A stretch of DNA of 50,687 nucleotides from contig NZ_QGKL01000037.1 of NCBI RefSeq assembly GCF_003172895.1, positions 1 through 50,687 of the forward strand, in the 5' to 3' direction. The number at the start of each line of letters is the position of its first letter. The first letter of the stretch is position 1. The notes under the pieces are model-generated. The model ran no database searches, was not told where the DNA came from, and saw only the letters and a program-made list of their open reading frames with translations. This DNA comes from Leucothrix arctica. GTDB lineage: Bacteria > Pseudomonadota > Gammaproteobacteria > Thiotrichales > Thiotrichaceae. The position numbers were made by a program, and so were the translations under genes. Shown in pieces: positions 29,144-47,200 of the stretch.

Positions 29144-29164
29144 AATATTTTCCAATCAAATTGT

Positions 29165-29238
29165 AGTAGCGTGGTTGGATTCATAGTCAACTTCAGCTGA
29201 GCCTAGCCCTAATCAAGAGGGGTGCAACGCTACTCAGC
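29165..29238 (-). promoter_or_regulatory. SAH riboswitch upstream of ahcY
   Basis: Read on the minus strand this matches the SAH riboswitch pattern GAG-N-AGCGYUGC-ACCC, then GGGCUAGGCUC, then CAACC-CGCU. The pairs are AGUAGCG/CGCUACU (29228-29234 with 29165-29171), GCUGAG/CUCAGC (29233-29238 with 29196-29201) and an internal CCC/GGG hairpin. In characterised cases SAH binding raises ahcY expression. It begins 15 bases after the metK stop. Confidence 0.9.
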
Positions 29239-29253
29239 CAAGGTTGTAAAAAA

Positions 29254-30408
29254 TTAAAGTGCCGCTTTTAGCACATCTACTCTATCAGTCTTTTCCCAAG
29301 GCAGATCGATATCCGCACGACCAAAGTGGCCATAGCTCGCTGTCTGGCGATAGATAGGTTGGATCAAGTCCATCATTGTTACGATACCGAACGGGCGTAG
29401 GTCGAAGTTAGAACGTACTAATGCTTCGATTTTCTCGTCAGATAGTTTACCTGTGCCGAATGTTTCAACAGAGATAGATGTTGGCTCTGCAACACCGATT
29501 GCATAAGAAACTTGAATCTCACAACGGTCTGCAAGACCTGCTGCAACGATATTCTTAGCAACATAACGACCAGCATAAGCAGCTGAACGGTCAACCTTTG
29601 ATGGGTCTTTTCCAGAGAATGCTCCACCACCGTGACGTGCCATACCACCGTATGTGTCAACGATGATCTTACGACCAGTCAATCCACAGTCACCAACAGG
29701 TCCACCAATAATGAACTGGCCAGTAGGGTTGATGTGGTATTGAGTGTCAGCGGTAAGCCATTCAGCAGGAAGAACTTCCTTAACAATCATTTCCATCACA
29801 GCTTCTTTAAGATCAGCTTGGCTGATTTCAGGGTTGTGCTGTGTAGAGAGTACGACTGCATCAATTGCAACAGGCTTGTCGCCTTCGTAGCGGAATGTAA
29901 CCTGACTTTTAGCATCTGGACGAAGCCAAGGCAGCGCACCAGATTTCATTAGGTCAGCTTGACGTTTAACTAAACGGTGAGCATAAGTCAGTGGAGCAGG
30001 CATCAATACGTCAGTTTCGTTACTTGCGTAACCGAACATAAGACCTTGATCACCAGCGCCCTGTGACTCTAAATCACCACGGTCTACGCCCATTGCGATA
30101 TCTGGAGACTGTTGACCTAGTGCATTAATAACAGCACAAGTGTCGCCATCAAAACCGATCTCAGAGCTTGTGTAGCCGATATCATTAACGACTTCACGAA
30201 CGATTCCTTCGTAGTCGATAACAGCAGAGGTTGTTACTTCACCTGCTAGAACAACCATTCCTGTTTTAACAAGTGTTTCACATGCAACACGTGCTGTTTT
30301 GTCTTGTGCAAGAATAGCATCAAGGATGGCATCAGAAATCTGATCTGCCATTTTATCTGGATGTCCTGCAGACACGGACTCGGATGTGAACAAGTGGTTC
30401 CCAGCCAT
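29254..30408 (-). CDS. metK: S-adenosylmethionine synthetase
   Basis: MetK makes SAM from methionine and ATP. It is 384 residues, the standard length. Motifs are [30 protein letters not shown] and [19 protein letters not shown]. The ATG has a strong AGGAGA site (complement of 30415-30420). A second SAH riboswitch-like element lies directly upstream of this site. It shares its strand and probably its transcript with ahcY. Confidence 0.98.
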
Positions 30409-30767: not shown

Positions 30768-32039
30768 GTGAATAAACGCTGCTTTCTCTTTCTTCAAGGT
30801 GTAGCCACACCGTTTTTTGATCGCTTAGCTTCATCTATCCGAGCTTCTGGTCTAGATACTTGTCGTGTGGTGTTTTGTGGTGGTGATGCTCAATATCATA
30901 GTAGTGGCGAAAGTATTTGTTACCGTGGTTCTATTGAAGACTTACCAAGCTTTTATGAGGACTTATTCAAGCGTCTTGGTGTGACAGATTTGGTGTTGTT
31001 TGGAGATACTCGACCTGTCCATATTCCTGCGATTGAGTTGGCAGCTAATTTAGAAAATGTAGAAACGCATGTCTATGAAGAAGGTTACCTAAGACCAGAC
31101 TGGATCACGTTAGATTCTGGTGGCGCTAATGCAAACTCTGCGCTTCTTCCAACATCGCCTATCTATTATAGAAATTCCGCTCAGGAAGTTCCAAGAGGAG
31201 TCCAGAGCAAAAAGACCGGTTACAGTCAGTCTGTACGTTTACTACAAGACGTTTATTACAATAGTGGGCGTGTTTTTGATGAACGAAATTATCCTCATTA
31301 TTCTAGACATAGGCTTCATAGTCCAATTCAGGAGTATCTTGGGTGGGTAAGGCGAGCACCCATAAAGCCTTTGTTATCTCAGTATGCAAAGTTTGTGACG
31401 AAGCGACTATTGAAACGAAATATTCCTTTCTATGTGTATCCGTTACAACTTGATAGTGATTCTCAAATCAGGGTGCATTCGCCGTACTCTAAAGGTTTAA
31501 GTAAAGCGACTGACGATATTATTAAGTCTTTTGCTAATCATGCGCCGAAAAAGTCAGTGTTGATAATTAAAAACCACCCTTTAGATACTGGGATCAATAA
31601 ACATAAGCAATACGTGAAAAAAGTGAGTAAAGATTACGACGTTAGCAATAGGGTCTTGTTTTTTGACGGTGGCCATTTACCAACTATGCTGCACAATACG
31701 GCAGGTACAGTTTTAATTAACAGTACTGTTGGTATGTCGTCGCTGTTTCATAAAAGCCCAACCATTGCCCTCGGTACAGCAATTTACGATATCCCAGGTC
31801 TAACATTTCAAGGGCGTTTAGACTGTTTCTGGCGTAGTAATAAAATACCGAACAAAAAGCTTTTCAAAGACTTCAGAGATGTTGTTATTGATCATACTCA
31901 GATCAATGGAAGTTTTTATTCTAAACGTGGGATTGAAATGGCGATTGCTGGTAGTTTGAAGCGATTTGGTATTCCGCCTGAGCCTGAAACTGAGCAAGAG
32001 CCTCCCAGCTTTAGTGAGCAACCTATTGAGGCGACTTAG
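30768..32039 (+). CDS. KpsS-like capsule polysaccharide protein (beta-Kdo transferase family)
   Basis: This 423-residue protein of the KpsS/Caps_synth family opens with FLFLQGVATPFFDRLA, where KpsS has LLLQGPxGPFF, followed by VVFCGGD. The C-terminal half has VLIIKNHPLDTG and NSTVGMSSLFHKSPTIALG, the usual Kps motifs. In E. coli group 2 capsules KpsS adds the first beta-Kdo to phosphatidylglycerol and KpsC extends the linker. Here the acceptor may be a different lipid, given the PKS operon nearby. The start is GTG with AAGGT upstream. It heads a three-gene plus-strand operon with the SDR and the LTA-synthase-like genes (12- and 14-base gaps). Confidence 0.88.
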   Translation: MNKRCFLFLQGVATPFFDRLASSIRASGLDTCRVVFCGGDAQYHSSGESICYRGSIEDLPSFYEDLFKRLGVTDLVLFGDTRPVHIPAIELAANLENVETHVYEEGYLRPDWITLDSGGANANSALLPTSPIYYRNSAQEVPRGVQSKKTGYSQSVRLLQDVYYNSGRVFDERNYPHYSRHRLHSPIQEYLGWVRRAPIKPLLSQYAKFVTKRLLKRNIPFYVYPLQLDSDSQIRVHSPYSKGLSKATDDIIKSFANHAPKKSVLIIKNHPLDTGINKHKQYVKKVSKDYDVSNRVLFFDGGHLPTMLHNTAGTVLINSTVGMSSLFHKSPTIALGTAIYDIPGLTFQGRLDCFWRSNKIPNKKLFKDFRDVVIDHTQINGSFYSKRGIEMAIAGSLKRFGIPPEPETEQEPPSFSEQPIEAT

Positions 32040-32051
32040 GCTCTAGTAGTA

Positions 32052-32801
32052 ATGAAAACCATTTTGATAACAGGGGCGACTGGTGGTATCGGTCAAGCAC
32101 TATCCCTAGTGTATGCCAATGCAGGTGTTCGTTTAATTCTGTTAGCTCGTCAAGAACAGCAACTTCATCAGTTAAGTGAAGCTTGTAGGACAAAGGGGGC
32201 AGACGTTGTTTTCTTTAGTCTAGACTTTAAAAACACCAATGATGTTTTGATGCTGTCAACTTCCATAGTTGAGCAGTTTGAAATAGATCTGTGTATTTCG
32301 AATGCAGGTTTAACGAGCAGTACTGTTGATAATGTAGTTGAGCCTTGGGGGAATATCGAGCAGTTAATCGATATTAATTTAACCGCAGCTTTGGCAGTTG
32401 TTCACCCCATAGTCTTAGATATGCAAGCTAGAAAAAGCGGGCAGGTGGCTTATGTGAGCTCTCTTGCAGCTTATTATGGTATGTCTTTGACCCCGGCGTA
32501 TTCTGCCAGTAAAGCAGGGCTTAAGGCTTATGCTGAAGCCATGCGAGTTTTGTTAAAGCCTAGTTTGGTTTCTGTAACACTCGTGACTCCCGGTTTTGTA
32601 GAGACAAAAATGAGCGATCAGTTTACCGGCAGTAAACCATTTATGATCTCGCCTGAGCAAGCTGCGATAAAAATTAAGAAAGGTTTAGATCGGCATGCCA
32701 AAGTAATTTCATTCCCGTGGGTTTTGTCACTAGGAATACGAGTATTATCCTGCTTGCCAGCCTCAATAGCTGATAGAATTATGGTACTTCTTCGCTATTA
32801 A
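32052..32801 (+). CDS. Short-chain dehydrogenase/reductase (RkpH-like)
   Basis: This is a 249-residue classical SDR: TGATGGIG NAD(P)-binding motif (8-15), SNAG (83-86), catalytic Ser136/137, Tyr150 and Lys154 (YSASK). The C-terminal hydrophobic segment (about 222-245) resembles membrane-associated keto-reductases such as 3-ketosphinganine reductase. It sits between the KpsS-like and the LTA-synthase-like genes, matching rkpH in the Sinorhizobium rkp-1 region. I infer that it reduces the ketone made by the alpha-oxoamine synthase at 35113-36465. The substrate is not proven. Confidence 0.9.
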   Translation: MKTILITGATGGIGQALSLVYANAGVRLILLARQEQQLHQLSEACRTKGADVVFFSLDFKNTNDVLMLSTSIVEQFEIDLCISNAGLTSSTVDNVVEPWGNIEQLIDINLTAALAVVHPIVLDMQARKSGQVAYVSSLAAYYGMSLTPAYSASKAGLKAYAEAMRVLLKPSLVSVTLVTPGFVETKMSDQFTGSKPFMISPEQAAIKIKKGLDRHAKVISFPWVLSLGIRVLSCLPASIADRIMVLLRY

Positions 32802-32815
32802 GCAGTAAAACTCTC

Positions 32816-34339
32816 ATGGCTTACTTGTTTGCTTTTGGCTCTTGCTTATTTCTTACGTTGGTTTTGGAGTGCTTCTTCAAGCCTCGTCCTTTCCTATTTT
32901 TTAAACGTAGAAAACAACCGCTATTAATATTGCTGTTATTGGTTACCTGCCTATTTTCTTTTGCTCTAGTGTTAACTCAGCGGCCCTACTTCTCAGCTAG
33001 TCTGGCTGTTTTAGGTTTTTTTGTCGTATTAATGGTGAATAATGCGAAGTTCAAAACGTTGCGTGAGCCTCTTGTTTTCTCAGATTTTTTCTTATACCAG
33101 CAAGCAATTAAGCACCCACGGTTATACCTCCCATTTCTAGGTGTTATACCACTAATAATATTGATTCTCTTGGTAGGGCTCATCGCAAGTGCGGGTTTTT
33201 ACTTTGAAGCCGCGGACTACTCAGTATTTTCTGGGATAACTGTAGGTGTGCTACTGGCCTTTATTACTAGTGTTATAAGTTTGAAGAGGCTTTCTGAGAA
33301 AGTTGTGATCACCAATGATGTGATAGAGGATAGCCGCTGTTTAGGTATCTTGGCAGCATTATGTAGCTATGGTGCCCAAGCTGCTGAACAACGGTCAAAA
33401 TTAGAAAGTACGATAAAAGCCAAGTCTCCTTATTCGATAACATCAAAGTCGACTGCGCTGATAAGTCCATTAGGTTTGTCCGATATAGTAATAGTACAAA
33501 GTGAGTCATTTTTTGATGCGCGGATACTAACGGATACAATCAAGACTGATGTCCTAACTGAATATGATAAATGTTTACTTGAAAGTGTCTGCCACGGGCG
33601 TTTAAAGGTTCCGGCATGGGGAGCGAATACTATGAGAACCGAATTCGCTTTTTTAACCGGACTTGAACCTCAGACTTTGGGATTAGCTCAGTTTTATCCT
33701 TATCAACAACTTCTTAATATGATGATCCCTTCTGTGGTCAGTGAGTTGAAGGCAAAAGGGTATTGGTGTGTCTGTATTCATCCAAATGCTGCCAGTTTCT
33801 TTATGCGTGATGAGTTCTTTAAGCAGTTGGGATTTGATGAGTTTGTTGATGCCGATGAATTTGTTGATGCTAAGCGTGAGGGGCCGTATGTGTCTGACTT
33901 GGAAGTGTCTGAAAAAATCAAACTTCTGTTAAATGAAACCGCTCAACCATGTTTCGTTTTTGCAATTACCATGGAAAATCATGGGCCGCTACATCTAGAA
34001 AGTGTGGCATATGACGAGTGGAAAACTTATTTTAGGCAAGAACCTAAGTCTGGTTTAACTGATTTGACGGTTTATTTGCGCCACCTGAAAAATGCGGATG
34101 CAATGATTAAGCACCAACTCGCATTTCATAAGGAGCGGGAGCGGGATACCGTATTTGGTTTTTATGGCGATCATGTGCCGGCGATTTCGCCTGTTTTTGA
34201 AGCTTTCGATTACGACGACCCGAGGTCGAACTATTTCATTTGGTCAAATACTCATACTGGTGGCAAGAAGTCTTCAGAGGTAAGTGTTGAATCGCTTGGA
34301 AAAAAAGTTTTGAGTCTAGCTAATGTACTAGCGAAATAG
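32816..34339 (+). CDS. LTA synthase-like membrane phosphotransferase/sulfatase
   Basis: This 507-residue protein has N-terminal membrane helices (about four, residues 1-155), then an alkaline-phosphatase-fold domain. Visible active-site elements are IVQSESFFD (metal-binding Glu), GANTMRTEFAFLTG with Thr272 as the expected nucleophile, ENHGP and FYGDH. LtaS-type enzymes transfer phosphoglycerol or phosphoethanolamine from phospholipids on the outer face of the inner membrane. It is the last gene of the KpsS-SDR operon, where the Sinorhizobium cluster has rkpI. Its stop region overlaps the convergent formyltransferase gene by 12 bases. The acceptor is unknown; a capsule lipid or sugar is likely by context. 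Confidence 0.87.
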   Translation: MAYLFAFGSCLFLTLVLECFFKPRPFLFFKRRKQPLLILLLLVTCLFSFALVLTQRPYFSASLAVLGFFVVLMVNNAKFKTLREPLVFSDFFLYQQAIKHPRLYLPFLGVIPLIILILLVGLIASAGFYFEAADYSVFSGITVGVLLAFITSVISLKRLSEKVVITNDVIEDSRCLGILAALCSYGAQAAEQRSKLESTIKAKSPYSITSKSTALISPLGLSDIVIVQSESFFDARILTDTIKTDVLTEYDKCLLESVCHGRLKVPAWGANTMRTEFAFLTGLEPQTLGLAQFYPYQQLLNMMIPSVVSELKAKGYWCVCIHPNAASFFMRDEFFKQLGFDEFVDADEFVDAKREGPYVSDLEVSEKIKLLLNETAQPCFVFAITMENHGPLHLESVAYDEWKTYFRQEPKSGLTDLTVYLRHLKNADAMIKHQLAFHKERERDTVFGFYGDHVPAISPVFEAFDYDDPRSNYFIWSNTHTGGKKSSEVSVESLGKKVLSLANVLAK

Positions 34340-35116
34340 GAATCGCAAAAAGCCAAACTTTCTATACTGTTTAAATTGCTTTACCTGTGCTCTTGATGGC
34401 CAAGAATCGTATCGACTTAATTCTTTTTTAACCGTGGTGCTAGGGTGCTCTACTCTATTAGATAACACGCTAACAAATAGCTTAGCACCAACACTAAAAA
34501 GCTTGGTATTCAGTGATAGCAATGTGTCTGTTAATGTTATTTCTTGATATTTTTGAGTAATGACCGCGCCTGTATCAAAGCCTTCTGCTAGGTGGTGAAG
34601 CGTCACGCCTGTTTCATTATAACTCTCTGTTAAAGCATAGAATGCAGGGTCGACCCCTTTTAAGTCTGGAAGGAGTGATGGGTGTAAGTTAATTGCAGCC
34701 TCTTGCGCTAAAGTATAAGTACTTGGGTGCACTAACTGATTAAAGTGTGCACAAAAAATGATGTCAGGATCAATTTTTTTGATTTTATCCTGTACGGTTT
34801 TGGAATTAATATCGGCGGTTAAAATTAGAGGTATATGATTTTTTTTGCTGATTGAAGAGATGCTGCCATGTTTGGATAACGCCGGGAAAAGTCGATAGCC
34901 TTGAGTAACCATTAGGAGATATAAAGCATATTGAACACCACTGATACTAATACGCTTTATATCGGATATCAGTTTGTTTTCTTTTGCTTTAAGATTTCGT
35001 GTTGATACGATAATTGCAGCTACTTCAATATTTGGCGCGCTGAGTATTTCTGTTAGTACGATGCTCGAATACAGAGAAGGGTAGGTACAAAATACAACGC
35101 GCTTTTGTTTATTCAC
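34328..35116 (-). CDS. Formyltransferase family protein
   Basis: This 262-residue protein has a Formyl_trans_N fold. The catalytic triad of the family is intact: Asn143 and His145 (INLHPSLLP) and Asp181 (GFDTG). It is not Fmt (which has a longer C-terminal OB domain) or PurN by context. N-formylation of an amino sugar or amino lipid from formyl-tetrahydrofolate is expected. It overlaps the alpha-oxoamine synthase gene by four bases (ATGA), so the two are translationally coupled. Formylating the amine created by that enzyme is a reasonable inference. An amino sugar of the capsule is the alternative. Confidence 0.85.
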   Translation of the reverse strand: MNKQKRVVFCTYPSLYSSIVLTEILSAPNIEVAAIIVSTRNLKAKENKLISDIKRISISGVQYALYLLMVTQGYRLFPALSKHGSISSISKKNHIPLILTADINSKTVQDKIKKIDPDIIFCAHFNQLVHPSTYTLAQEAAINLHPSLLPDLKGVDPAFYALTESYNETGVTLHHLAEGFDTGAVITQKYQEITLTDTLLSLNTKLFSVGAKLFVSVLSNRVEHPSTTVKKELSRYDSWPSRAQVKQFKQYRKFGFLRFLFR

Positions 35117-36465
35117 TTTAGATCGTTAAGTGCTGTGCTTAAGGTTTGAATCGTCGTAGTAATTTGCACATCGGTATGTTCTGAACTGATGAAAAAACGT
35201 AATCGTGCAGCCTTGTCTTCTACTGCAGGACGCAGTATTGGTTGAACGTTAATACCAGCATCAAACATGATATTTGACAACTCCACCGCCTTTTTAGAGC
35301 TACCAGCCATTGCTGGAATAACAGAGTAACCTTCACTTTTCCCTGTATCGATACCTGCCTCTTTCGCTAATCTAAGAAAAAGCTCACCGCGTGATTGTAA
35401 GCGTTTCACTCGTTCAGGCTGATTATTCATCAACTTGATAGACTTGAGTGATGCTGCTGCAAGAGGTGGAGCGATACCTACACTGTATAAAAAACCAGGT
35501 GCGTAGTGTCGTAAGTGTTTAATCAATGCGTGTTCACCAGCGATGTAACCACCACAGCTAGCAAAGCTTTTACTGAGAGTTCCCATCCAGATGTCGATGC
35601 TTTTAAAGTCTATGTCGAGATGTTCTGCAATTCCGCGTCCTGTATTGCCAAGAACGCCCATTGAGTGTGCTTCATCAACCATTAGAAAAGCGTGGTGACG
35701 TTTTTTGATTTCTACGAACTTTTCGAGATCAGGAATATCGCCATCCATGCTGTATAGACCTTCGATAACAACCAATACACGCTCAAAATTAGAACGATTA
35801 CCACTTAACAAATCCTCAAGGTGCTGCCAGTCATTGTGACGAAACGGGATACGCTTTGCCCCAGAAAGCTGTGCGCCTTGTAGAATACTGTTATGGGCGA
35901 GAGAGTCATGCAGTATTAGATCTTTAGGGCCAAATAGATAACCAATAACGGAGACGTTAGTTGCATGGCCACTGACAAATGTTAATGCATCGTCGACTTG
36001 GTAAAGGTTGGCTATCTCTTTCTCAAGTGACTGTTGTACTGTGCGCTCACCAGATACCATTCTGCTAGCAGAGACGGTTGTACCATATCTCTCAAGTGCA
36101 TCTTGTGAGGCCTTGATAACCTCAGGGTGCCCACCAAAGCCAAGGTAGTTATAGCTAGAGAAGTTAATATAATCTTTGCCATTAATACGCGACGTTGCGG
36201 ATGCGATTCCATCATGAGTTTTAAAGAAGGGGCTATTGATGCCGAGTGTTTTCCCTCCTTTCTCCATAAACTCAATTTCTTTATAGCCATCGAATTGTTC
36301 AAAGCTAGTCCACTTTTTATTAATCGATTTGCTAAAAATCCCTTTCGTTGGATCTGCAGGTTTCTCTTGTTGCTGCTTTTGCTTTTTTTGTTTCGCATTG
36401 AGCGCTTTATTTAAGAGTAATTCCTTCGTCGCATCGCTGAGGCCATTTTTTTTGAATTTACTCAT
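35113..36465 (-). CDS. PLP-dependent alpha-oxoamine synthase (RkpG/BioF-like)
   Basis: This is 450 residues. A charged, Lys/Gln-rich extension (1-60) precedes an alpha-oxoamine synthase core. PLP residues are visible: SGHATN (His167), VDEAHSMGVLG (Asp264, His267) and the Schiff-base Lys299 in GTLSKSFASCGGY. The family joins an acyl thioester to an amino acid with loss of CO2, as in KBL, BioF, serine palmitoyltransferase and fungal Fum8. No biotin genes are nearby. The gene overlaps the PKS stop by 8 bases, so the acyl donor is most likely the chain on the PKS carrier protein, making this the chain-release enzyme. It corresponds to RkpG in Sinorhizobium. Confidence 0.9.
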   Translation of the reverse strand: MSKFKKNGLSDATKELLLNKALNAKQKKQKQQQEKPADPTKGIFSKSINKKWTSFEQFDGYKEIEFMEKGGKTLGINSPFFKTHDGIASATSRINGKDYINFSSYNYLGFGGHPEVIKASQDALERYGTTVSASRMVSGERTVQQSLEKEIANLYQVDDALTFVSGHATNVSVIGYLFGPKDLILHDSLAHNSILQGAQLSGAKRIPFRHNDWQHLEDLLSGNRSNFERVLVVIEGLYSMDGDIPDLEKFVEIKKRHHAFLMVDEAHSMGVLGNTGRGIAEHLDIDFKSIDIWMGTLSKSFASCGGYIAGEHALIKHLRHYAPGFLYSVGIAPPLAAASLKSIKLMNNQPERVKRLQSRGELFLRLAKEAGIDTGKSEGYSVIPAMAGSSKKAVELSNIMFDAGINVQPILRPAVEDKAARLRFFISSEHTDVQITTTIQTLSTALNDLK

Positions 36466-39400
36466 CAGAGTCCGGTGTCCGAGTTATATTGGCTAGATCA
36501 TCTTGTGAAATAGCTGTTCCATGTTTCGATGCTAGATTTACCATTGTTTCATCTACTTCTGGTTTAGCAGCATCATTGATCTTAGAGTAAATTTTCTCCG
36601 AAATTTTGTTGATGCTACCACCTTCCGTCAAGCTCATTAATGGTAACTTGGTTTTAAAGCGTTCTTCAATAGCCAGCAATAACTCCATACCCATCAACGA
36701 ATCCATACCTAAGTCATAGATTGGGCTAGCGGGATTTATTTTATCCATTGGTAGACGTAGAATTTGTGAAATCTCACGAGTCAGCATTGTTGCTATCAAT
36801 GCTTGCACCTCTTCTTCGCTCATGCCTTCAATGTGGGTGAAAAAGTCATCGCCATCATCGTTACTAGTATGACGATCTAGCCAATTGTTTTGTTGAGTGA
36901 ACTTTGGTGACTTGGCACTTGGCATAGTGCGTTTTATAGCTTTCCAGTCGAAATTGATATAAGCATTGCCCGGCTGTTCTGGGTCAAGGATTAACTTTTC
37001 AAGTTCAGCTAACGCTTCTTTAGATATTAGTGCTTCACCCCCAAACCGTGACACCAATGAGTCTTGTGTGTCCTTATTACGGGCAAGGAAGCCAACGTCA
37101 GAGATTGCACCCCAAGCAGCGTAGCATGCAGTAAGGCCGAGTTGACGTCGATACAAGGCAAGGTTTTCTAACATGTAGTTAGCAGCTACATAGTTAGCTT
37201 GTCCAGGATTACCAAACAGCGTTGTTGCTGAGGAATAAAGCACGAAAAAGTCTAGTTGAAGATCTTTTGTCTGTTCGTGTAAGTTCCATGCGCCAGCTGC
37301 TTTTGCACCGATCACATTATCTAGTTGCTCAGTCGTCATGTTTCTAATCAGCGCATCATCAAACACAGTTGCTGCATGAACCACGCCACCGACTCTTATT
37401 TCATTAGTAGTGAGGTTGGTAAATACAGCCTTGAGCTGTGATTCGTTGGTTACATCGCAAGCAGGCGAGTAAACAGTAATACCTGCAGCTTCAAATTTAG
37501 TGATAGCTTCCAAAGACTCTTCTGTTACGGGGCCTTTTCTACCCAGTAGTGTTAAGTGCTTAGCACCTTTGCTGGCTAGCCATTGTGCGGTTGTAAGACC
37601 AAATCCGCTCAACCCACCAGTAACGATATAAGTGGCAGATTCATCAAGCGCCAATGTTTGTGTTGTAAGCCGCGTTTCAACAGGTAATGACTCCGGCAGT
37701 CGTAAAATAACTTTACCGATCTGTCTAGACTGTTGCATATAGCTAAAGGCATCTTGTATGCGGTTAGCATCAAAGACACGGTGCGGCAGTGGATGGATCT
37801 CTTTTTCTTCAAACAACACCATCAGGTCTTTGAACAGTCGCTTAGCTAGGCTAGCTTTTTCAGTTAGTAGTTGGTCAGCATCAATACCAAAGTAGGTGAT
37901 ATTGTTACGGAACGGTCGTAGGCCGATACGAGAGTTTTCATAAAAGTCTCGCTTACCAAGCTCTAAGAAACGTCCGAAGGGCTTTAGTATAGAAAGGTTA
38001 CGATTAACCGCTTCACCATAAACCGAGTTCAAGACAACATCGATGCCTTCGCCTTCGGTGATTTCGAAAATATCATTTTCGAACGATAGGCTTCTAGAGT
38101 CCAGTACATGATGAGCGCCAATATTCTTAACAAATGCACGCTTTTCTGGTGTTCCTGCTGCCGCAAAAACTTCAGCGCCAAGGTGTAGCGCAAGTTGTAC
38201 TGCTGCAATACCAACACCGCCGCTAGCACCATGAATCAAGACTTTTTCACCTTCCTGCAGTTGAGCTAGATGAACAAACGCATAATAAACGGTGAAGAAT
38301 GTTGTTGGAACGGTAGCGGCTTCCTCAAAACTCCAGTCTTTTGGTTTATGGGCCGTTGCTGTTGTTCCTGTGATGACTCTGTTCGAGAAGCAAGCAGGTG
38401 CAAAGCCTAGTACTTCATCGCCAATAGCAAACTCAGTAACAGAAGCACCAATTTTGGTAACAATCCCCGCTGTTTCCATACCAAGTGTTGGACCAGCAAA
38501 ACCGTTCTCTACTGCTTCATCTGATAGTAGCCCCATTGCATACATAATATCTCTGAAGTTTAGGCCAGAGGCAATTGGACGTATTTCGATTTGATCTTCA
38601 CCTAATCGAGACTCGCTTTGTGCTCGCCAGTATAGGTTTTTGAAGGAACCAGGTACTTTAAAATCAAGTGATGCGGGCAGAGTGCTTTCTTTGGTATGTG
38701 CTTCGCTGAAGTCAGTTTGCTGCATACGAAGAACATGACGGCCTTTAGCGGATAGCATGACCTCATCATTACCATCATCATTTAATACTTCCTGAGCAAA
38801 GTTAAGCTCAGGCTCGCTTAAGACATGACGGCCAGTATCAATGAGTCGACAACGTAAATCTGGGTACTCATTCATAATAACGCGTCCGAAGCCCCACATC
38901 GTTGATGATTTCGGTTCAAACATTGGTTCAGCTTTTACACTAATGGCCGTTGCTGCGCCGCTAGTGACAATAACAAGTTGAGGGATATCCTCTAAACTTT
39001 CTAATACACCAAGTAGCGGGTGGATACGGTGCATCGGTGTTAACAAGTCATCCTTACACGCAGTCGCCAGATAAATGACTCGATCATAGTTATTACAAGA
39101 CAAAAGCTGTGAGTAATCTGCTACTGACTCCATATTGCATATGAAGTCAGTACTTGAAATCTCCTCAAATCCAGAACCATGTTTTGCATGGCTTGCTTTA
39201 ATATTTACTGATGATGGTAGTGCTATAGAATTTTTAGCGTCAAACATCTCAACAGGATTGATGACTAGCCAGTGCTCTTGAGTAGCACTGACCTCTTCGA
39301 CAAACTCAGGTTCTTGTTGCTCGCCTTTAGTTGCGAATAATAAGAAAACACCTTGTTGGTTGTCACTAAAGCTATCTTCAAGGCTTGTTGCTTCAATGAA

Positions 39401-42400
39401 GTTGCTATCACTTAATTGTTGTGACCAGTCAGAAGCTGTCATCAGTCGCGAGTGGTCCGTTCCCCACCATTCCGGAGAGGTACCAAAGGTTAAGTCAGTA
39501 AAACGATCAGGTGCTCGTTCAAGAGCAAACAATTGTCCATTGGTATTGAGTAGCGTGCTAACTTTCTTTAAACCAGCACTACGATTATCCAACTTATGTA
39601 GCACGTGTGAGCTAATGATCAAATCAATATCTTGTGGAGCTGTTTCAATATCAATGTCGTTGATATTTAATACCATCGTTTGTGCTGAGTCACTTGTTTC
39701 AAATAGGCGCGTGAGGCTCCCCAGCTTTGACTCATCTGCATAGGCAACCGTTAGTTCAAATGCTTGATTGTTTAATAATGAAAGCAGGTTGTGAGTGAGT
39801 TGGTCAGGATAATCTGAGATAACAAGCACACGACAGAGTTGCTGTGAGTCGAACTGCTCTAGCAATGATTCAACAGATGTTAGTAGTGCTTGATTGAATG
39901 GTGCATAACTTGGAGCGCCTTCAAACAACTGCTCTAATAAACTGCTTTTTTCAGGGGACAATACTGCTTGGCCAGTCAATTCGCCAGTTAGAACTTCAGT
40001 CAGCTGCTCACCGCACTGTGAAAGTACAAGTAACTCAGGCAGGTAGGTCGGTGCTGCCTGGTAGATGTATTGCCAGATATCATTAGCTTCTGCTAACTCT
40101 TCAGCTTGCAGGTTCGCATAGTCACCATTAATCGCAACAAGGTCATTTTCTTCCAAAATAGCGAGAAGACGATTAAATAAAGGGTGTAGTGCATCATCTA
40201 AGGTTTCTTTGGCCTCAGACAGGCTGATGGAACCTTTGTTTGTTACATTGTTAATTGCATCGAAGGCATAAGACGAAGCCATCATGTCGATAAGTAGCGA
40301 ATACTCATTAAAGTGCTTGTTTCTTAGTGTTGCTAGATCGCTTTTATCTAACGCTAGCTGTGTTGATTTTACGAGTGAGTCAACATCAACTGAAGGTGTT
40401 GCTACCGGGTGCTTTTGGTGAGGTAGTAGCTTTGTTTTGTATTGATACTGATTGATCTTCTTCGGTAGTGCAGATTTGAACTGGATTTGCCTAAATCGGC
40501 ACTTTTCTAATATAACAACAGTTTCGCTATTACCGTCTAGTAGATAAAAGTTTGCAACCAATGAGCGCGGGCTTCTGCGGACCACCTCGATAAGTACCTG
40601 CTTAATACTGCCAGCATGAGACTTTAGTAAATGCAGACTGCCAACTTGAATAGGAATCAATGCTTCATTGATGCCGGATAAGATAGCGGAGCGGCAGATG
40701 TCGACTAAAACCTGGAACCCAGAGTCCAATAGCGATGGATGAAGATGGTATGACTCAAGGTCACTTTCTAATGCTTCTGGAAGCGTTAGTTCTGCAAGTG
40801 CCGATAGCGTATTAGCGTTAACCGATGTCACTGCCTGAAAGTTTGGACCGTATTTTAGCCCTACTGTTTCTGCTAGCGTGTAATGTTCTTCACCGAGTAT
40901 TCGATTGCTGTCGCTGAGAAGATCATTGTTAAGAGATACCACTTTTGGTTTCTTAAAAGAGTGCTTTAGTAGGCGACCAGTCGCATTTTGAGTCCACTCA
41001 TCTTTACTTAGTCGATCTCGGCTAGTGACTCTGAAGCTTCCATCGCTTGGGTCAAGGTGGAAGCGTACTTTCTTAGCTGTACCTTCTTCAAGAAGAATAG
41101 GCACAGGTATTTCAACCATTTCGATGTGATGTGTTTCTGATTTGCACCAGAGCGCAGAAGCGGCAATTGCCATTTCAATAAAAGCAGCTGCTGGTAAAAC
41201 GATAGCATCATCAACTACATGATCTGCCAAGTAAGGAAGCTCAGTAGTGTCTAGGTTATTTTCCCAAATAATATCGCTATCTTTTAGACGGTAACCTAGC
41301 AGAGGGTGTTCCCGTTTTCGATTTACCAAGTCGTACCCTTCTGAAGTCAGTGGGTACCAATACCGTTGACGCTGCCAAGGGTAGGGGGGTAATGCAACTG
41401 ATGGAACAGTAACGGGAAATAGCTTCGTACTATCAAGAGTGACACCCGATAATATCAATTTAAGCGTATTTTGATACAGGTGCTCTTCACTATCATGTTT
41501 ACGTTTCAAGCTGCCTATCACAGTGCCTTTTTTACCAGCATTTGTGAGGCAGTCACTAACATAAGCCCGCAAAATTGGGTGCGCACCTATTTCAATGAAC
41601 GTATCAAAACCTTGTTCTGCTAGCTGTGTAATACCTTGATTAAACTGCACGGGCTGTCTGATGTTATCCCACCAGTAGTTTGCAGTAAGTTTTTCGCCGG
41701 ACAACTCCTTACCAGTGACAGTAGATATGTATGGAAGCTTAGTTGGTTCAGGCGTTAGCTCTGAAAGTGATGTCAGAATATTACTTTCAATTTCATCCAT
41801 CGCGGTGCTATGGAAAGCATAATCTAGATCTAATACTCGGTAAAAGCTACCTTGAGCTTCAACAGCAGTTTGAAGCGTCAGCAAGTCTTCTAGCTTTCCA
41901 GAAATCGTTGAGTTATTCGGGCTGTTATCACCTGCAATTTCAATCGACTCATTTAGATCAAGTGTTTGTAGCAACCCAGCGAGCGCAATATTACCTAAGC
42001 CAACTGCAGCCATTCTGCCCGTGCCTTTGGTTAATCCTTGTGCTTGGCTTCGGAAGTGGATGACACGTACCGCTTGTTCAAGGCTCAAAGCTCCTGCTGT
42101 CCACGCAGCCGCAACCTCACCCACACTGTGACCAATCACAGCATCTGCTGAAATTCCGTTATCGCTAAAGAACTCAACGATGCCGACTTGTATGGCGAAA
42201 AGTAGCGGTTGTGCAATTTCAGTCAGGTCTAGTTGACTAGTATCTTTTGCTCGAAGCAGTTCTTCTTCTAAAGAGTAGTCCGCTGAAAGTTCGTTCAGAA
42301 GCACGGATACCTTATCAAATATAGCTTTAAAACTTGTGTTTGATTGGTAAAGTGCTTGTCCCATCCCTTGCCATTGGCAGCCGTTACCGGTGAATACAAA

Positions 42401-44005
42401 AGCTAGCTTTGTGTCACTACTGTAGTTGTTTGTAATGACTTTTTTTGCAGTTCCATTCGTGGTGTATTGCTCTAACTGCTCAATAAGCTGATCAGGGTTT
42501 TCACCATACACTGCCATAGTATGAGTATGCATGCTTCGGTATTTAAACGCAGAGTAGGCAGTAGCGTAGTAGTTGTTTGTGTTGAGTTTTAGGTGTGCTA
42601 AGTATTGCTCTGCTACGTTGCTTAGTGCTTCAGGGGCGCGCGCTGAAAGTATGAGTGGTGGCGTTAAGTTACTGATAGTGTCAGGACTCGCCTGGTCGAT
42701 AGTTTGAGGTTTGTACTCTTCTATGAGTACGTGAGCATTCGCACCACCAAACCCGAACGAGTTGATGCCAACAAGATGAGGTTTTTCCTGTTCTGGGAGT
42801 GGGGTCAGCTCAGTTACTACTCGTAAGTTTAGCGCTGTAAAGTCGATGTTTTCGTTTGGCTTGTTAAAATGAAGTGATGCTGGAATAGCACGGTTCTTAA
42901 GTGTTAAAACAGCTTTCAATAAGCCAGCCATGCCCGATGCTGTTTCAAGGTGGCCTAAGTTAGTTTTAGCCGAACCAATTAATAATGGGTTTTCTGGCTT
43001 TCTATGTACGCCAATACTTTGGCCTAGAGAATTCGCTTCTAATGGGTCACCTACCGCAGTTCCCGTGCCATGCGCTTCAAGGTAGCTTAAATCAGATGCA
43101 GCAACGCCAGCATCAGAATAAATTTTATCTAGTAGCGCGCTTTGGGTTTCCATGCTAGGTACAGTAATACCTGACGTACTACCGTCACAGTTCACGCCTG
43201 AGTTAATAATTACCGCGTGAATGTGATCACCATCAGCTTCAGCTTGCGCTAGTGGTTTTAGTAAGAATATACCTGCACCTTCAGCACGAACATAGCCATT
43301 ACCATCATTATCAAAGGCTTTGCAACGTCCGTCCGGAGAGAGCATTGACGCTTTTGAGAACCCAATAAAAGGAAATGGATGCAACAGCATGTTGATACCG
43401 CCACAAAGTGCGGTAGATGCTTCACCTGTCCAAATGGACTGACAGGCTTGATGAACTGCAACTAATGAAGATGAGCAAGCAGTGTCAACTGATACAGAAG
43501 GACCCTGAAGGTTAAAGTTATAGGAGATTCGGTTAGATGCAACGCTAGCGGTATTACCCGTCATGGTATATGCATCTAGAGATGCTAAGTCATCAGTGCG
43601 TCGGTGAGCGTAATCGTTACTTGCAATTCCCATATAAACCGCGCAATCAGTACCTTTTAGAGTATCAATACTAATACGTGACTCTTCAATTGCTTCCCAT
43701 GCTAGTTCGAGTAGTAGCCGCTGCTGAGGATCCATTTGTTCAGCTTCTCTTGGAGATATACCAAAGAAAGCAGCATCAAATTGGTCAACGGCATCCAATA
43801 CACCCGCTGCAAACGTATAACTTTTCCCGGGTTCTTTTTTGTTACCGTGAGAATAAAACTCTGTTCCCCAACGATCATCACTTATTTCGGTAACAACGTC
43901 CTGTCCTTGACTTAGTACTGACCAGTAGTTCTCTGGTGTTTTTATGCTACCTGGTAGACGGCACGCCATACCAATGATAGCGATCTGCTTATCGTTTTTA
44001 ATCAA
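36458..44005 (-). CDS. Highly reducing type I polyketide synthase (RkpA-like)
   Basis: This 2515-residue megasynthase has, in order: KS (5-430; Cys177, His312, His352), AT (535-830; GHSVGE with Ser627, YAFHS at 729-733 favouring malonyl), DH (897-1175; His929 in HVVDDAIVLP, Asp1094), a degenerate C-methyltransferase region (1360-1560), a KR structural part (1570-1770), ER (1795-2100; GASGGVGIAAVQLA), KR (2120-2310; Ser2258/2259, Tyr2272) and ACP (2400-2465; Ser2436 in LGMDSLMG). There is no thioesterase. Such synthases work iteratively and make reduced, fatty-acid-like chains. The start is TTG with AGAAGG upstream. It heads the PKS-AOS-formyltransferase operon; length and order match RkpA of Sinorhizobium. 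Confidence 0.95.
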   Translation of the reverse strand: MIKNDKQIAIIGMACRLPGSIKTPENYWSVLSQGQDVVTEISDDRWGTEFYSHGNKKEPGKSYTFAAGVLDAVDQFDAAFFGISPREAEQMDPQQRLLLELAWEAIEESRISIDTLKGTDCAVYMGIASNDYAHRRTDDLASLDAYTMTGNTASVASNRISYNFNLQGPSVSVDTACSSSLVAVHQACQSIWTGEASTALCGGINMLLHPFPFIGFSKASMLSPDGRCKAFDNDGNGYVRAEGAGIFLLKPLAQAEADGDHIHAVIINSGVNCDGSTSGITVPSMETQSALLDKIYSDAGVAASDLSYLEAHGTGTAVGDPLEANSLGQSIGVHRKPENPLLIGSAKTNLGHLETASGMAGLLKAVLTLKNRAIPASLHFNKPNENIDFTALNLRVVTELTPLPEQEKPHLVGINSFGFGGANAHVLIEEYKPQTIDQASPDTISNLTPPLILSARAPEALSNVAEQYLAHLKLNTNNYYATAYSAFKYRSMHTHTMAVYGENPDQLIEQLEQYTTNGTAKKVITNNYSSDTKLAFVFTGNGCQWQGMGQALYQSNTSFKAIFDKVSVLLNELSADYSLEEELLRAKDTSQLDLTEIAQPLLFAIQVGIVEFFSDNGISADAVIGHSVGEVAAAWTAGALSLEQAVRVIHFRSQAQGLTKGTGRMAAVGLGNIALAGLLQTLDLNESIEIAGDNSPNNSTISGKLEDLLTLQTAVEAQGSFYRVLDLDYAFHSTAMDEIESNILTSLSELTPEPTKLPYISTVTGKELSGEKLTANYWWDNIRQPVQFNQGITQLAEQGFDTFIEIGAHPILRAYVSDCLTNAGKKGTVIGSLKRKHDSEEHLYQNTLKLILSGVTLDSTKLFPVTVPSVALPPYPWQRQRYWYPLTSEGYDLVNRKREHPLLGYRLKDSDIIWENNLDTTELPYLADHVVDDAIVLPAAAFIEMAIAASALWCKSETHHIEMVEIPVPILLEEGTAKKVRFHLDPSDGSFRVTSRDRLSKDEWTQNATGRLLKHSFKKPKVVSLNNDLLSDSNRILGEEHYTLAETVGLKYGPNFQAVTSVNANTLSALAELTLPEALESDLESYHLHPSLLDSGFQVLVDICRSAILSGINEALIPIQVGSLHLLKSHAGSIKQVLIEVVRRSPRSLVANFYLLDGNSETVVILEKCRFRQIQFKSALPKKINQYQYKTKLLPHQKHPVATPSVDVDSLVKSTQLALDKSDLATLRNKHFNEYSLLIDMMASSYAFDAINNVTNKGSISLSEAKETLDDALHPLFNRLLAILEENDLVAINGDYANLQAEELAEANDIWQYIYQAAPTYLPELLVLSQCGEQLTEVLTGELTGQAVLSPEKSSLLEQLFEGAPSYAPFNQALLTSVESLLEQFDSQQLCRVLVISDYPDQLTHNLLSLLNNQAFELTVAYADESKLGSLTRLFETSDSAQTMVLNINDIDIETAPQDIDLIISSHVLHKLDNRSAGLKKVSTLLNTNGQLFALERAPDRFTDLTFGTSPEWWGTDHSRLMTASDWSQQLSDSNFIEATSLEDSFSDNQQGVFLLFATKGEQQEPEFVEEVSATQEHWLVINPVEMFDAKNSIALPSSVNIKASHAKHGSGFEEISSTDFICNMESVADYSQLLSCNNYDRVIYLATACKDDLLTPMHRIHPLLGVLESLEDIPQLVIVTSGAATAISVKAEPMFEPKSSTMWGFGRVIMNEYPDLRCRLIDTGRHVLSEPELNFAQEVLNDDGNDEVMLSAKGRHVLRMQQTDFSEAHTKESTLPASLDFKVPGSFKNLYWRAQSESRLGEDQIEIRPIASGLNFRDIMYAMGLLSDEAVENGFAGPTLGMETAGIVTKIGASVTEFAIGDEVLGFAPACFSNRVITGTTATAHKPKDWSFEEAATVPTTFFTVYYAFVHLAQLQEGEKVLIHGASGGVGIAAVQLALHLGAEVFAAAGTPEKRAFVKNIGAHHVLDSRSLSFENDIFEITEGEGIDVVLNSVYGEAVNRNLSILKPFGRFLELGKRDFYENSRIGLRPFRNNITYFGIDADQLLTEKASLAKRLFKDLMVLFEEKEIHPLPHRVFDANRIQDAFSYMQQSRQIGKVILRLPESLPVETRLTTQTLALDESATYIVTGGLSGFGLTTAQWLASKGAKHLTLLGRKGPVTEESLEAITKFEAAGITVYSPACDVTNESQLKAVFTNLTTNEIRVGGVVHAATVFDDALIRNMTTEQLDNVIGAKAAGAWNLHEQTKDLQLDFFVLYSSATTLFGNPGQANYVAANYMLENLALYRRQLGLTACYAAWGAISDVGFLARNKDTQDSLVSRFGGEALISKEALAELEKLILDPEQPGNAYINFDWKAIKRTMPSAKSPKFTQQNNWLDRHTSNDDGDDFFTHIEGMSEEEVQALIATMLTREISQILRLPMDKINPASPIYDLGMDSLMGMELLLAIEERFKTKLPLMSLTEGGSINKISEKIYSKINDAAKPEVDETMVNLASKHGTAISQDDLANITRTPDSDE

Positions 44006-44073
44006 GGTTTTACCTTCTCTACGTATTCATGTTGCTTTGGGGCTTAAAGAGGGGGATGTATCTTGCCTGAGCT

Positions 44074-44079
44074 ATTATA
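44074..44079 (-). promoter_or_regulatory. Candidate -10 element for the PKS operon
   Basis: On the minus strand a perfect TATAAT lies about 70 bases before the PKS start, in an AT-rich 212-bp gap after the KpsC-like gene. No good -35 hexamer sits at 17 bases, so this is only a candidate. It suggests that the PKS operon can be transcribed separately from the KpsC-like gene. Confidence 0.35.
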
Positions 44080-44217
44080 TCTTATTGATACATGTTTATA
44101 TAATTTTGCCTTAATGACTCTTTTATTGATTGTTTATTTTATAGGTTAAATGACGGCTGGACAATATAACTCAAAAAAGACGCTCAGTTTTGCTATTTTG
44201 GTACATAGAATTTCAGA

Positions 44218-47200
44218 CTACTTTGTATATGTGGTAAACAAAGCACGAAATAGGTTCAGATATCCTGAGAGTTTTTGCGAGTAGATGCTTTGTTGTTTTT
44301 TATCAGCAAGGGATTTTGATTGTTTGTGGAGTTGACTTACTACTGTTTCAGCGTTGATATAACTCTGTGTTGACCAATCGTAATAGCGAGGGTATAAGAG
44401 CAACGTGCCTGCTACTAGTTCATCAATATTTAGCTGCCTCTGTCTCCGATCTAGAATATGACGATCATGGGTCAATCCCCAATTAGAATAAAAAGGAAGG
44501 CCATAACAGTGAACATCTATCCCCCTAAGAAGTGCTTCAAAGCCGACTAGTGACGTTAAGGTATGTACTTCGTCAGCCATATTCAAGCATATAGGAAGAC
44601 TTAAGTTTTCAATTATTTGATCACAGTGTTGCAAGGCGATTTCCGATGGCATTGAACCCGCACGGTTACCACTGACAACATCAGGGTGCGGTTTGTAAAT
44701 AATATATGCTGCTGGGTTTGCCTTTCTAACCGAAGTTAAGAGTTCCAGATTCGTTGTGATATCAATACACCCTAATTCGATGGATACATCATCAGCTACC
44801 TGGCCTGGTACTAAAATAACAACTTGCTCTGCACTATGCTTTGAAATGACGATGCTATGCTGTAAGCCGAGGTTATATTTACTGACACCTAACGATACGA
44901 TTTGTGTTTTCAGCGTACGTGCTCGCTTCATAAGCACCGCATCAAACACATGACTACTCAAAATTGACTCTAATGTAGACGGCTGTCCAGGGTCAAAATA
45001 GATCCCTTGATCATCGAATACCAATGACGATGGCAACGAATAATTGGAACCTAAATTAACCGAACGAAGAAACCCATCTTCAAGCTTCACAATGCTTGCT
45101 TGATGTTTTTTTGCCAAGCTTTTCGCAATATTGAGGTGAGTATTAGACCATATAAAGAGTTTTGTTTTGTTATCGCATGGGTATTTTCTGGCGTCCGTTT
45201 CGCTTTTTATAAAGTGAAGTGTGTTATCAGGGTTGTGAAGCAAAGTTTTAATGAATCTTTTTTTCCATGGGGTAAAACCAATGCAAAGAAAAAGGCCTGT
45301 ATTTTTTATCGCATATTTATATTGTATTACTATATGCTTCAAAACCACTTCTATCTCACAAGGCTGTTTATTAACTGGGTCTAAATAGCGAGAGTATCGT
45401 ATATAAGCTGCATGGAAAATAGCGTCCAAAGATGGTCTGCTGCTCCGTCTGTTAACGATGGAAAGTGAAGGATCAAAGCGGTCTGAGGTAAGCCCCCAGC
45501 CAGCATAAAACGGTGCGCCAAAACAAATTACCAATTTATTTAGCATCAAAGCCTCGAAACCTGCTTGTGAAGAAACAACATATACTTTGTTTACTTCTTT
45601 CATCAATACTAATGGGTTTGTATTGTCTGTTAATAAATGTAAGTTGTTGGGGAGTGGATTAGGTATAGAAATACAACCACTACGTTTACCGTTAATTACA
45701 TCTGGGTGAACTTTGATTAAAACATCAGACTCTGGATTCTCACTGATTGCTGCATCTAGCATGACCTGAAAAGTTTCCTTCGTAGCCATTGCATAGGGAA
45801 TTGACATGTCTCCATCTACTTGGTCTAGGACTAATACAGGAGTCTTATAAGTTTTTACTTTCTTAGGTAGCACTAAAGACGCATTGTTATACTTCGTAAT
45901 ATGGTGAGTAGTGATTTTTGCAATGCAAGACATTGCTCTGTTCGATTGCTCAGTGTTTAGTGTAGCTGTGTTAATTAGTTGTTCTAAGTCTGATGTGGTA
46001 TTAGCATCATAAAATATACCGCTTTGGTCGATGACTAATGACCATGACGCTGCGCCTAGTCTCCCTTGACTCATTGAGTGAATGAAACCATCCTCTAATG
46101 ATAGATAAGGTAAACCGTGCTTTAGGGAGTAGGCGCGAGCAACTTTTGTGTTTGGTTTTTTGCCCCATGCGATGATTTGATCAACTGATTTAGAGTGTTT
46201 GTCAGAAGGTTTAAAGAGAAGCGTATGGCTACCTAGATGGCGCAATAGGCGTGAGTTCTTTGCAAGACCTTTGCTGAAAGCGCCAAGAGTCTTTTCTGGG
46301 TGCTCCTGGATCTCATTACTTGACACGAGCAAACGGAATAGCTCCTTCTCTTTAGACCATGAGTGTCTTCGTGAAGGTTTGAAGGTGTGGGAAGTTATAT
46401 GGTATCGGCTACCTTTAGTGATTGTGCGGTCAAAACCATAAGTATGTAGGGTAGTACTCAAATGCTTGTGCTGGCATAGGTAGTATAACCAAAGCAAGCC
46501 AGCGCTCGGTGGTGCTCGTAATATTTTTACTAAGTCCGACCACGAGGTGATTGGGAGTGTAATAATTTTACGGTTTTGTTCTAAGTGCTGACTAGCACAA
46601 CTCCAGTCCTGCAAGGTGTAGCGTACATCTCCTCCAGAGAGGACCACCCATTCCACACTGTCAGGAATTGGGTAATTCTCAGTAAATACTTCAGGTGAGG
46701 TTATCCAAATATTAGTCTTAGTTCCAACATCTCGTTGTAGATCATAGCTATTGGCTGGGAATCGATTAAACCGGCAAATGATATCGTGCCCATCAATCTC
46801 TGGTCCTAACCCAGAATTAATTAAAGAAGTGCCATTACCAATAACGGCGAGAGATTTGTCTTCTAATAGTTCAAGTAACTCCTGTCGCCAGGCGTCTTGT
46901 TGATAAAGCACTTTATCGAAATCATCCGATTTTACCTGTTGGTTTATACTTTCAGTGTTATCTATCTCACCTAGTAGTAGGCGCCTTATACGCTGATTTT
47001 GGTTTTTTTCTGCCGAGTGTTTTTTAAGCGCACCTTCTAAGCGACTAACCATTTTAGTACTTACTGCTCCATGGATATCTCGTTGCAATTTTGCATAAGC
47101 GAAATGAATGCGTGAGTTGTCTGATATTGAGCATGCTTTGGCGAGCAGCGACAGTGTTTTTTCATCATAAATGCCTTTTTTACGACGCTGCAGGGCAAGC

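Follow-up and report, generated by a model that had tools for sequence, protein, structure and literature searches.

Capsules of the Kps type, exported by ABC transporters, are generally assumed to stand on an ordinary phospholipid. In the standard account (lyso)phosphatidylglycerol is the lipid on which KpsS begins, and KpsC then lengthens a linker of 3-deoxy-D-manno-oct-2-ulosonic acid (Kdo) (PMC10148158, PMC11041684, PMC11666461, PMC7694667); the phosphatidylglycerol-poly(Kdo) foot has been called highly conserved among all species (PMC11666461). The products of the rkp-1 region of Sinorhizobium (rkpA, G, H, I, J) both make and modify a specific lipid that acts as carrier in K-antigen secretion, and rkp-1 mutants are capsule-deficient (PMC4881576); the wcb cluster of Burkholderia and the rkp clusters of Rhizobium and Nitrosomonas are homologous sets of polyketide synthase (PKS) and capsule genes (PMC3908369). 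Here we describe a locus of this kind in the gammaproteobacterium Leucothrix arctica. The window analyzed is the entire contig NZ_QGKL01000037.1 (C31; 50,687 nucleotides), part of a 4.75 Mb genome. The locus, at 30768-47229, encodes a PKS, an alpha-oxoamine synthase (AOS), a short-chain dehydrogenase/reductase (SDR), an LtaS-like enzyme, a formyltransferase, and KpsS- and KpsC-like Kdo transferases. It probably builds a single-chain sphingolipid via the PKS and adds a phosphoglycerol head to it, as the base for capsule chains.

The lipid half of this proposal has a published counterpart. In Pseudomonas fluorescens MYb115 the SgaAB system was reported in 2025 to make C24-C28 sphinganines and, most likely, phosphoglycerol-sphinganines; SgaA is required for the sphinganines, SgaB has serine palmitoyltransferase (SPT) activity with acyl-CoAs and a virtually exclusive preference for serine, and ketosphinganine reduction by SgaC is proposed (PMC12134224). 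A +154 Da lipid product and activity of the lipids on a worm host were also reported, 6,101 homologous clusters were counted, and fumonisin and sphingofungin offer a further likeness, since these sphingolipid-like compounds also come from a PKS and their pathways include a homologue of ketosphinganine reductase (PMC12134224). Words starting capsul, lipoteichoic or glycosyltransferase are absent from the main text of that paper, and in the open-licence literature we found no paper on a sphingolipid capsule anchor or on a link between PKS-made sphingolipids and capsules, which is weak evidence of absence. To our knowledge fumonisin and sphingofungin are fungal mycotoxins that come with no capsule genes or phosphoglycerol transferase. 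The locus is real and conserved and its parts are mostly already known: the sphingolipid half and the capsule half are each in print, and what is new is their specific union and an N-formyl variant. A first-pass annotation of this DNA, whose interpretation is partly supported overall, had thought a PKS-made sphingolipid in a gammaproteobacterium to be new; the 2025 report (PMC12134224) had already described one.

The polyketide synthase and its oxoamine synthase

Open reading frame (ORF) calling and Pfam divide the locus into two convergent groups, with the KpsS-like, SDR and LtaS-like genes on the plus strand and the KpsC-like, PKS, AOS and formyltransferase genes on the minus strand. PKS, AOS, SDR, LtaS-like enzyme and KpsS are encoded together, as in capsule lipid loci of the rkp/wcb type. 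The genes listed in the first-pass annotation all proved real on ORF and Pfam checking, at the coordinates given below; its inventory missed the formyltransferase (34328-35116).

The PKS (36458-44005, minus strand; 2515 residues) has the domain order KS-AT-DH-(degenerate MT region)-ER-KR-ACP by Pfam and motif reading, and no thioesterase match was found in it with Pfam. Active-site motifs are present in the KS (C/H/H), AT (GHSVG with AFH), DH (H and D), ER and KR domains, and the translation contains the ACP motif DLGMDSL. We take the AT specificity motif ending in AFH to denote the malonyl type. Iterative, fully reducing type I synthases have this set of domains, and a saturated chain is the predicted product. 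The long region between DH and ER gave a weak, sub-cut-off trace of Methyltransf_12 in Pfam and a search of the PKS for the SAM (S-adenosylmethionine)-binding pattern found none, so active C-methylation by the PKS was rejected. The SAM-recycling genes ahcY and metK directly adjoin the capsule genes (27731-30408); since the methyltransferase region looks dead, this adjacency is probably incidental.

The PKS stop overlaps the start of the AOS gene (35113-36465, minus strand, RkpG/SgaB type; Aminotran_1_2, 168 bits) by 8 bases, and the AOS stop overlaps the formyltransferase ORF by 4. Is the AOS a release enzyme for the PKS or a housekeeping enzyme of the BioF or KBL type? Its highest NCBIfam score was indeed to bioF (TIGR00858, 342 bits), but this lies under the cut-off of 426, which a separate BioF elsewhere in the genome exceeds (490 bits). 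The AOS also fell below the KBL cut-off and below those of three SPT models (299, 279 and 215 bits against 640, 500 and 670). Its best solved relatives are SPTs, 3a2b being the top one. In a 50-row tree, in which several deep forks stay open and some rows are long, its nearest group comprises 24 rows with moderate support (85/91); that group holds PKS-linked AOS proteins of Pseudomonas, Paraburkholderia and relatives, and the genome's own BioF falls outside it. The AOS of one genome of the same class pairs with that of Paraburkholderia. The sub-cut-off scores, the separate BioF and the tree placement led us to reject the BioF/KBL assignment, and with the gene overlap and the neighborhood survey below they make a housekeeping AOS unrelated to the PKS scarcely credible.

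That survey mapped 56 AOS loci, the present one included, from 53 genomes, in stretches of up to 20 kb, many of them ended by contig edges. A PKS ORF lay on the same strand within 300 bases of the AOS in 49 of the 56, one of these (L085) being a single fused PKS-AOS ORF. Among the other seven, one ORF separates PKS and AOS in L060 and L072, L054 has a PKS fragment at a contig edge, and in the mapped stretches of L039, L040, L067 and L070 no such PKS was found near the AOS. A count of 49/56 points to conserved pairing and not to chance.

A fully reducing, iterative, thioesterase-less PKS beside an AOS of the PKS-linked clade is also the arrangement of SgaAB-type clusters, for which a homologous locus on a Pseudomonas plasmid served as comparator. 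The likeness extends to the SDR, giving the same trio of iterative PKS, AOS with SPT activity and SDR as SgaA-SgaB-SgaC; the difference is the formyltransferase that overlaps the AOS gene in L. arctica. The plasmid locus (57.5% AOS identity) carries PKS, AOS, PhyH, a further capsule-biosynthesis protein, GNAT, LtaS-like and SDR genes, and also KpsS, KpsC, KpsF, KdsB and KdsA. Its AOS and SDR genes are as far apart as sgaB and sgaC by locus tag (25); in the plasmid locus an LtaS-like gene immediately precedes the SDR gene, and KpsS comes next after it. Chain release by the AOS followed by SDR reduction to an amino alcohol, as put forward in the first-pass annotation, is the published or proposed route in P. 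fluorescens (PMC12134224). The annotation had left serine, alanine and glycine open as co-substrates; since SgaB prefers serine virtually exclusively (PMC12134224), serine is much the likeliest.

Several other arrangements were seen around AOS genes. An LpxC-like deacetylase gene recurs near PKS-AOS (L006, L034, L056, L062, L072; the Pfam LpxC match is confirmed for L034 only), lying between PKS and AOS in L006 and L072 and beside LtaS in L062; the Paraburkholderia plasmid locus used for comparison with wcb has it between PKS and AOS, with a GNAT gene after. Directly after the AOS in three loci of the phylum sample, L075 (11371-12519), L082 (7586-8737) and L076 (1080-2183), is a protein of 367-383 residues without a Pfam match, and a 380-residue lipase-like protein occupies the same place in L063. 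A scan of genome contigs gave 11 AOS loci from planctomycetes, Thermoguttaceae and Desulfovibrio, which are not near relatives. Those of planctomycetes and Thermoguttaceae (L019-L025, L029) are open frames of about 1,160-1,230 residues with a longer N-terminal part, and those of Desulfovibrio (L026-L028) lie opposite an ORF of 1,070-1,103 residues with a weak PKS-profile match. The L. arctica genome itself also encodes another, dissimilar PKS that carries a fused AOS domain at its C-terminus (C42 21148-28884; L095 3149-10885, plus strand), with an E1-E2 ATPase-like protein and an SDR downstream; this is probably a separate amino-polyketide pathway.

The LtaS-like enzyme and the tie to capsule genes

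The LtaS-like enzyme (32816-34339, plus strand, in the RkpI slot; Sulfatase, 105 bits), a predicted membrane phosphoglycerol transferase, would be the link between sphingolipid synthesis and capsule. A (lyso)phosphatidylglycerol acceptor already carries phosphoglycerol, so ordinary Kps capsules should have no need of such an enzyme; a sphinganine-based one would, and this need fits the reported +154 Da lipid. All five solved sequences matched at E<=0.001 are named glycerol-phosphate transferases (two phosphoglycerol transferases, one of them GacH, one lipoteichoic acid primase and two lipoteichoic acid synthases), and the nearest is a phosphoglycerol transferase. With 35 bits against the NCBIfam LtaS model (cut-off 970) the protein is a relative of the family, not LtaS itself. 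Its N-terminus is hydrophobic over residues 1-159 by hydropathy. Residues E230, T272, H322, R331, H389, D452 and H453 are invariant in 10 homologues, including that of S. meliloti, and in an alignment to GacH they coincide with catalytic and head-group sites, where they presumably serve as nucleophile, metal ligands and head-group contacts.

The SDR (32052-32801, plus strand; adh_short, 136 bits), a presumed 3-ketosphinganine reductase in the RkpH/SgaC slot, has general SDR reductases as solved relatives (best 60 of 200) and lies between KpsS and the LtaS-like gene in many loci. The KpsS-like protein (30768-32039, plus strand; Capsule_synth, 262 bits) is a Kdo transferase of the RkpJ or capsule initiation type, with 280 bits against the NCBIfam KpsS model (cut-off 600). 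Sinorhizobium rkp-1 has the same gene set, in the order PKS-AOS-SDR-LtaS-like-KpsS in the S. meliloti record (L005), as one co-directional run; L. arctica differs in its two convergent groups and its formyltransferase, and the two LtaS-like proteins share only 26% identity. With wcb of Burkholderia and relatives the likeness is a PKS (WcbR) alongside capsule biosynthesis and export genes (PMC3908369). The E. coli group 2 system shares the KpsS and KpsC Kdo transferases and ABC export; its acceptor is (lyso)phosphatidylglycerol (PMC10148158, PMC7694667), in place of which we propose a lipid that comes from a PKS and is served by a dedicated phosphoglycerol transferase.

We put at slightly better than one half (about 0.55) the probability that the locus produces its own lipid for anchoring the capsule and puts it to that use, the lipid being a phosphoglycerol-sphingoid that serves as acceptor for KpsS and KpsC. 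In the scheme we envisage, whose chemistry, order, topology, chain length, amino acid and formyl acceptor we infer, the PKS would assemble a long, saturated acyl chain tethered to its ACP, and the AOS would release it by decarboxylative condensation with L-serine, giving 3-ketosphinganine that the SDR would reduce to sphinganine. In this lineage the formyltransferase may then cap the amine as N-formyl, to yield a single-chain ceramide analogue. The LtaS-like enzyme would move glycerol-phosphate from phosphatidylglycerol to the 1-hydroxyl, forming a phosphoglycerol-sphingoid with the shape of lyso-phosphatidylglycerol. KpsS would add the first Kdo to that glycerol and KpsC extend the Kdo linker, and the capsule would be grown and exported on a phosphoglycerol-sphingoid foot replacing (lyso)phosphatidylglycerol.

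Co-occurrence across genomes, which the first-pass annotation had named as a check, bears the capsule tie out. The class sample comprised 369 evenly drawn genomes, including the source genome, with cut-offs of E<=1e-100 for AOS, E<=1e-60 for KpsS and E<=1e-100 for the LtaS-like enzyme, the latter two chosen after the lists had been seen. AOS was found in 12 genomes, strong KpsS in 16 and tight LtaS-like matches in 9. Seven of the 16 KpsS-positive genomes have AOS, against five of the 353 others (Fisher 4.6e-8). The LtaS-like enzyme is present in 7/7 genomes with both KpsS and AOS (two of them, G180 and G384, from one genus), 1/9 with KpsS alone, 1/5 with AOS alone and 0/348 with neither; within KpsS-positive genomes the difference (7/7 vs 1/9) gives p=0.0014 by Fisher's test. 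At looser cut-offs PF05159 (E<=0.001) matched 43/369 genomes, including the same seven AOS-positive ones, and the LtaS-like search (E<=1e-40) matched 13/369, the four extra genomes all being AOS-negative and KpsS-negative. Among the 53 AOS-positive genomes, PF05159 (E<=1e-20) occurs in 42 and the LtaS-like enzyme (E<=1e-60, a cut-off likewise chosen afterwards) in 40: in 37 of the 42 with Kps against 3 of the 11 without (Fisher 1.7e-4). Those three are G327, G733 and G461, and the LtaS gene of G327 reaches a contig end. The capsule role proposed in the annotation is thus backed both by this co-occurrence and by rkp-1/wcb homology (PMC4881576, PMC3908369); that the sphingolipid is covalently the capsule anchor is shown in no paper that we found in the open-licence literature.

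Several observations weigh against the anchor proposal. The genomes are mutually related and the cut-offs post hoc. Most AOS loci are not closely linked to capsule genes: within the mapped stretches KpsC/KpsS lie near 17 of the 56, an LtaS-like gene near 18, and neither near 33. Eleven of the 53 AOS-positive genomes lack a Kps match. Five of the 42 with both AOS and Kps lack a detectable LtaS-like enzyme; G390 and G406 are drafts (85% and 84% complete), and G578, G672 and G675 are rated 100%. The KpsS-positive genome G335 has KpsC-KpsS-SDR-LtaS and no AOS at the cut-off, on a contig of only 13 kb where a reverse ORF has a weak PKS-profile match and no Pfam family.

Free sphinganine and phosphoglycerol-sphinganine can moreover be extracted from P. 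fluorescens and act on its worm host (PMC12134224), and they may be end products. It is conceivable on these grounds, if unlikely, that PKS, AOS and SDR make free membrane lipids or secreted metabolites, that the LtaS-like enzyme heads only the free lipid and that the capsule genes are a separate pathway. The unlinked loci and Kps-negative genomes just counted favor such a view, as does genus g5, in which the PKS-AOS-formyltransferase cluster stands apart from capsule genes. Yet a KpsS-SDR-LtaS trio lies elsewhere in the same genome in both g5 genomes examined (G010, L036 with L093; G016, L037 with L103). The tie of AOS to KpsS and the LtaS-like enzyme holds genome-wide even where the genes are unlinked, and the rkp-1 region, whose mutants are capsule-deficient, is reported to make a lipid carrier for secretion (PMC4881576); both argue for the capsule anchor. 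A cytochrome P450 gene just upstream of the g5 cluster (L037 157-1527, plus strand; the only locus tested) may serve hydroxylation of the sphingoid chain.

The weakest step of the anchor scheme concerns topology. LtaS-type active sites face the periplasm, and KpsS works at the cytoplasmic face, so a flip step or a different order or topology would be needed. Might the LtaS-like enzyme instead decorate the exported polymer? The lipid would then still be an anchor, KpsS acting on sphinganine or another lipid, and the enzyme would add glycerol-phosphate or phosphoethanolamine to the polymer or the Kdo linker after export. The expected periplasmic site speaks for this, as does GacH, among the nearest solved relatives, which decorates a polysaccharide side chain. 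We nevertheless consider it rather improbable: the enzyme tracks PKS-AOS and not capsule alone, and phosphoglycerol-sphinganine is a probable SgaAB co-product (PMC12134224).

A formyltransferase beside the lipid genes

The formyltransferase (34328-35116, minus strand; Formyl_trans_N, 84 bits, cut-off 26) scored below the cut-offs of all seven NCBIfam models it matched. N143, H145 and D181 are invariant in 13 homologues and form the N-x-H...D pattern that we take to be the catalytic triad of N10-formyltetrahydrofolate formyltransferases, which places the protein in that group. We propose that it formylates the sphingoid amine.

A further point against the scheme outlined above is that the fold is shared with formyltransferases whose substrates are sugars: many of the solved relatives are sugar N-formyltransferases (ArnA, PseJ, WlaRD), and the substrate could be an amino sugar of the capsule repeat. 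The gene neighborhoods make this doubtful. In 20 of 26 same-family loci, among them L036-L038 and L055-L057, whose mapped stretches contain no capsule gene, AOS and formyltransferase share a strand and are no more than 80 bases apart. The other six comprise three genomes (G015, L098; G020, L099; G400, L097) with no formyltransferase beside the AOS and one by LtaS, two loci (L046, L061) whose contig ends less than 350 bases from the AOS, and L050, which shows none. In L098 and L097 the gene is directly by LtaS and in L099 one ORF intervenes; LtaS is followed by SDR and KpsS in L098 and L099 but not L097. Since the formyltransferase gene keeps company with the lipid genes in three different arrangements, its substrate is more probably the lipid than a sugar specific to one serotype. 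Homologues with 22% identity occur near SDR and KpsC/KpsS in two genomes of the phylum sample (L079, L080).

We also considered that the position after the AOS might be a general slot for amine-capping enzymes, filled elsewhere by GNAT proteins, which are encoded in L006 and L007. The remaining loci tested had an unrelated gene after the AOS or formyltransferase (10 proteins: NusG-like, O6-methylguanine methyltransferase, chorismate-lyase-like, amine oxidase, lipase-like or of no family). In P. fluorescens the lipids were described as sphinganines, and amine acylation goes unmentioned in the sections covered of that paper (PMC12134224). The idea was dropped for these reasons, except for the formyltransferase.

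Kdo linker, export and the wider meaning

The KpsC-like protein (44218-47229, minus strand; 1003 residues) is encoded immediately beyond the region flagged in the first-pass annotation (30768-44005). It is a dual Kdo transferase with Capsule_synth matches in two stretches (284 bits). An extra N-terminal domain (46210-47229, minus strand) resembles eukaryotic-type GT29 sialyltransferases (Pfam Glyco_transf_29, 51 bits; PDB sialyltransferases, E 3e-7). Open frames in the KpsC position exceed 1000 residues in two genus mates and have about 700 in others; the combination of a GT29-like domain and a Kdo transferase in one protein seems unusual.

Candidate parts of a Kps exporter are on contig C2: a KpsE-like protein (244 bits, below the cut-off of 437), a Poly_export protein (KpsD-like) and an ABC2_membrane protein (KpsM-like). 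Between the KpsM-like and KpsE-like genes, in the KpsT position, is an ORF (C2 31219-31881; L091 11220-11882, minus strand) with no Pfam match and a translation without a clear Walker A motif; it may be a transporter ATPase that has degenerated, or a functional copy may lie elsewhere.

How far might the L. arctica arrangement extend? A large share of ABC-exported capsules could be built on a PKS-made phosphoglycerol-sphinganine that mimics lyso-phosphatidylglycerol (N-formylated here) and not on phosphatidylglycerol, the "secondary metabolite" sphingolipids of Pseudomonas being unglycosylated anchor precursors. We hold this wider proposal tentatively, at a little short of even odds. If it is true, such capsules do not always stand on ordinary phosphatidylglycerol, and if the 7/16 Kps-type genomes of the class sample that have PKS-AOS use a sphingolipid foot, the view of a "highly conserved" anchor (PMC11666461) needs revising. 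The PKS of the rkp and wcb clusters, known for decades as a "lipid carrier" gene, would acquire a defined product, and the Pseudomonas sphingolipids would gain a cellular purpose and a named candidate for their phosphoglycerol transferase.

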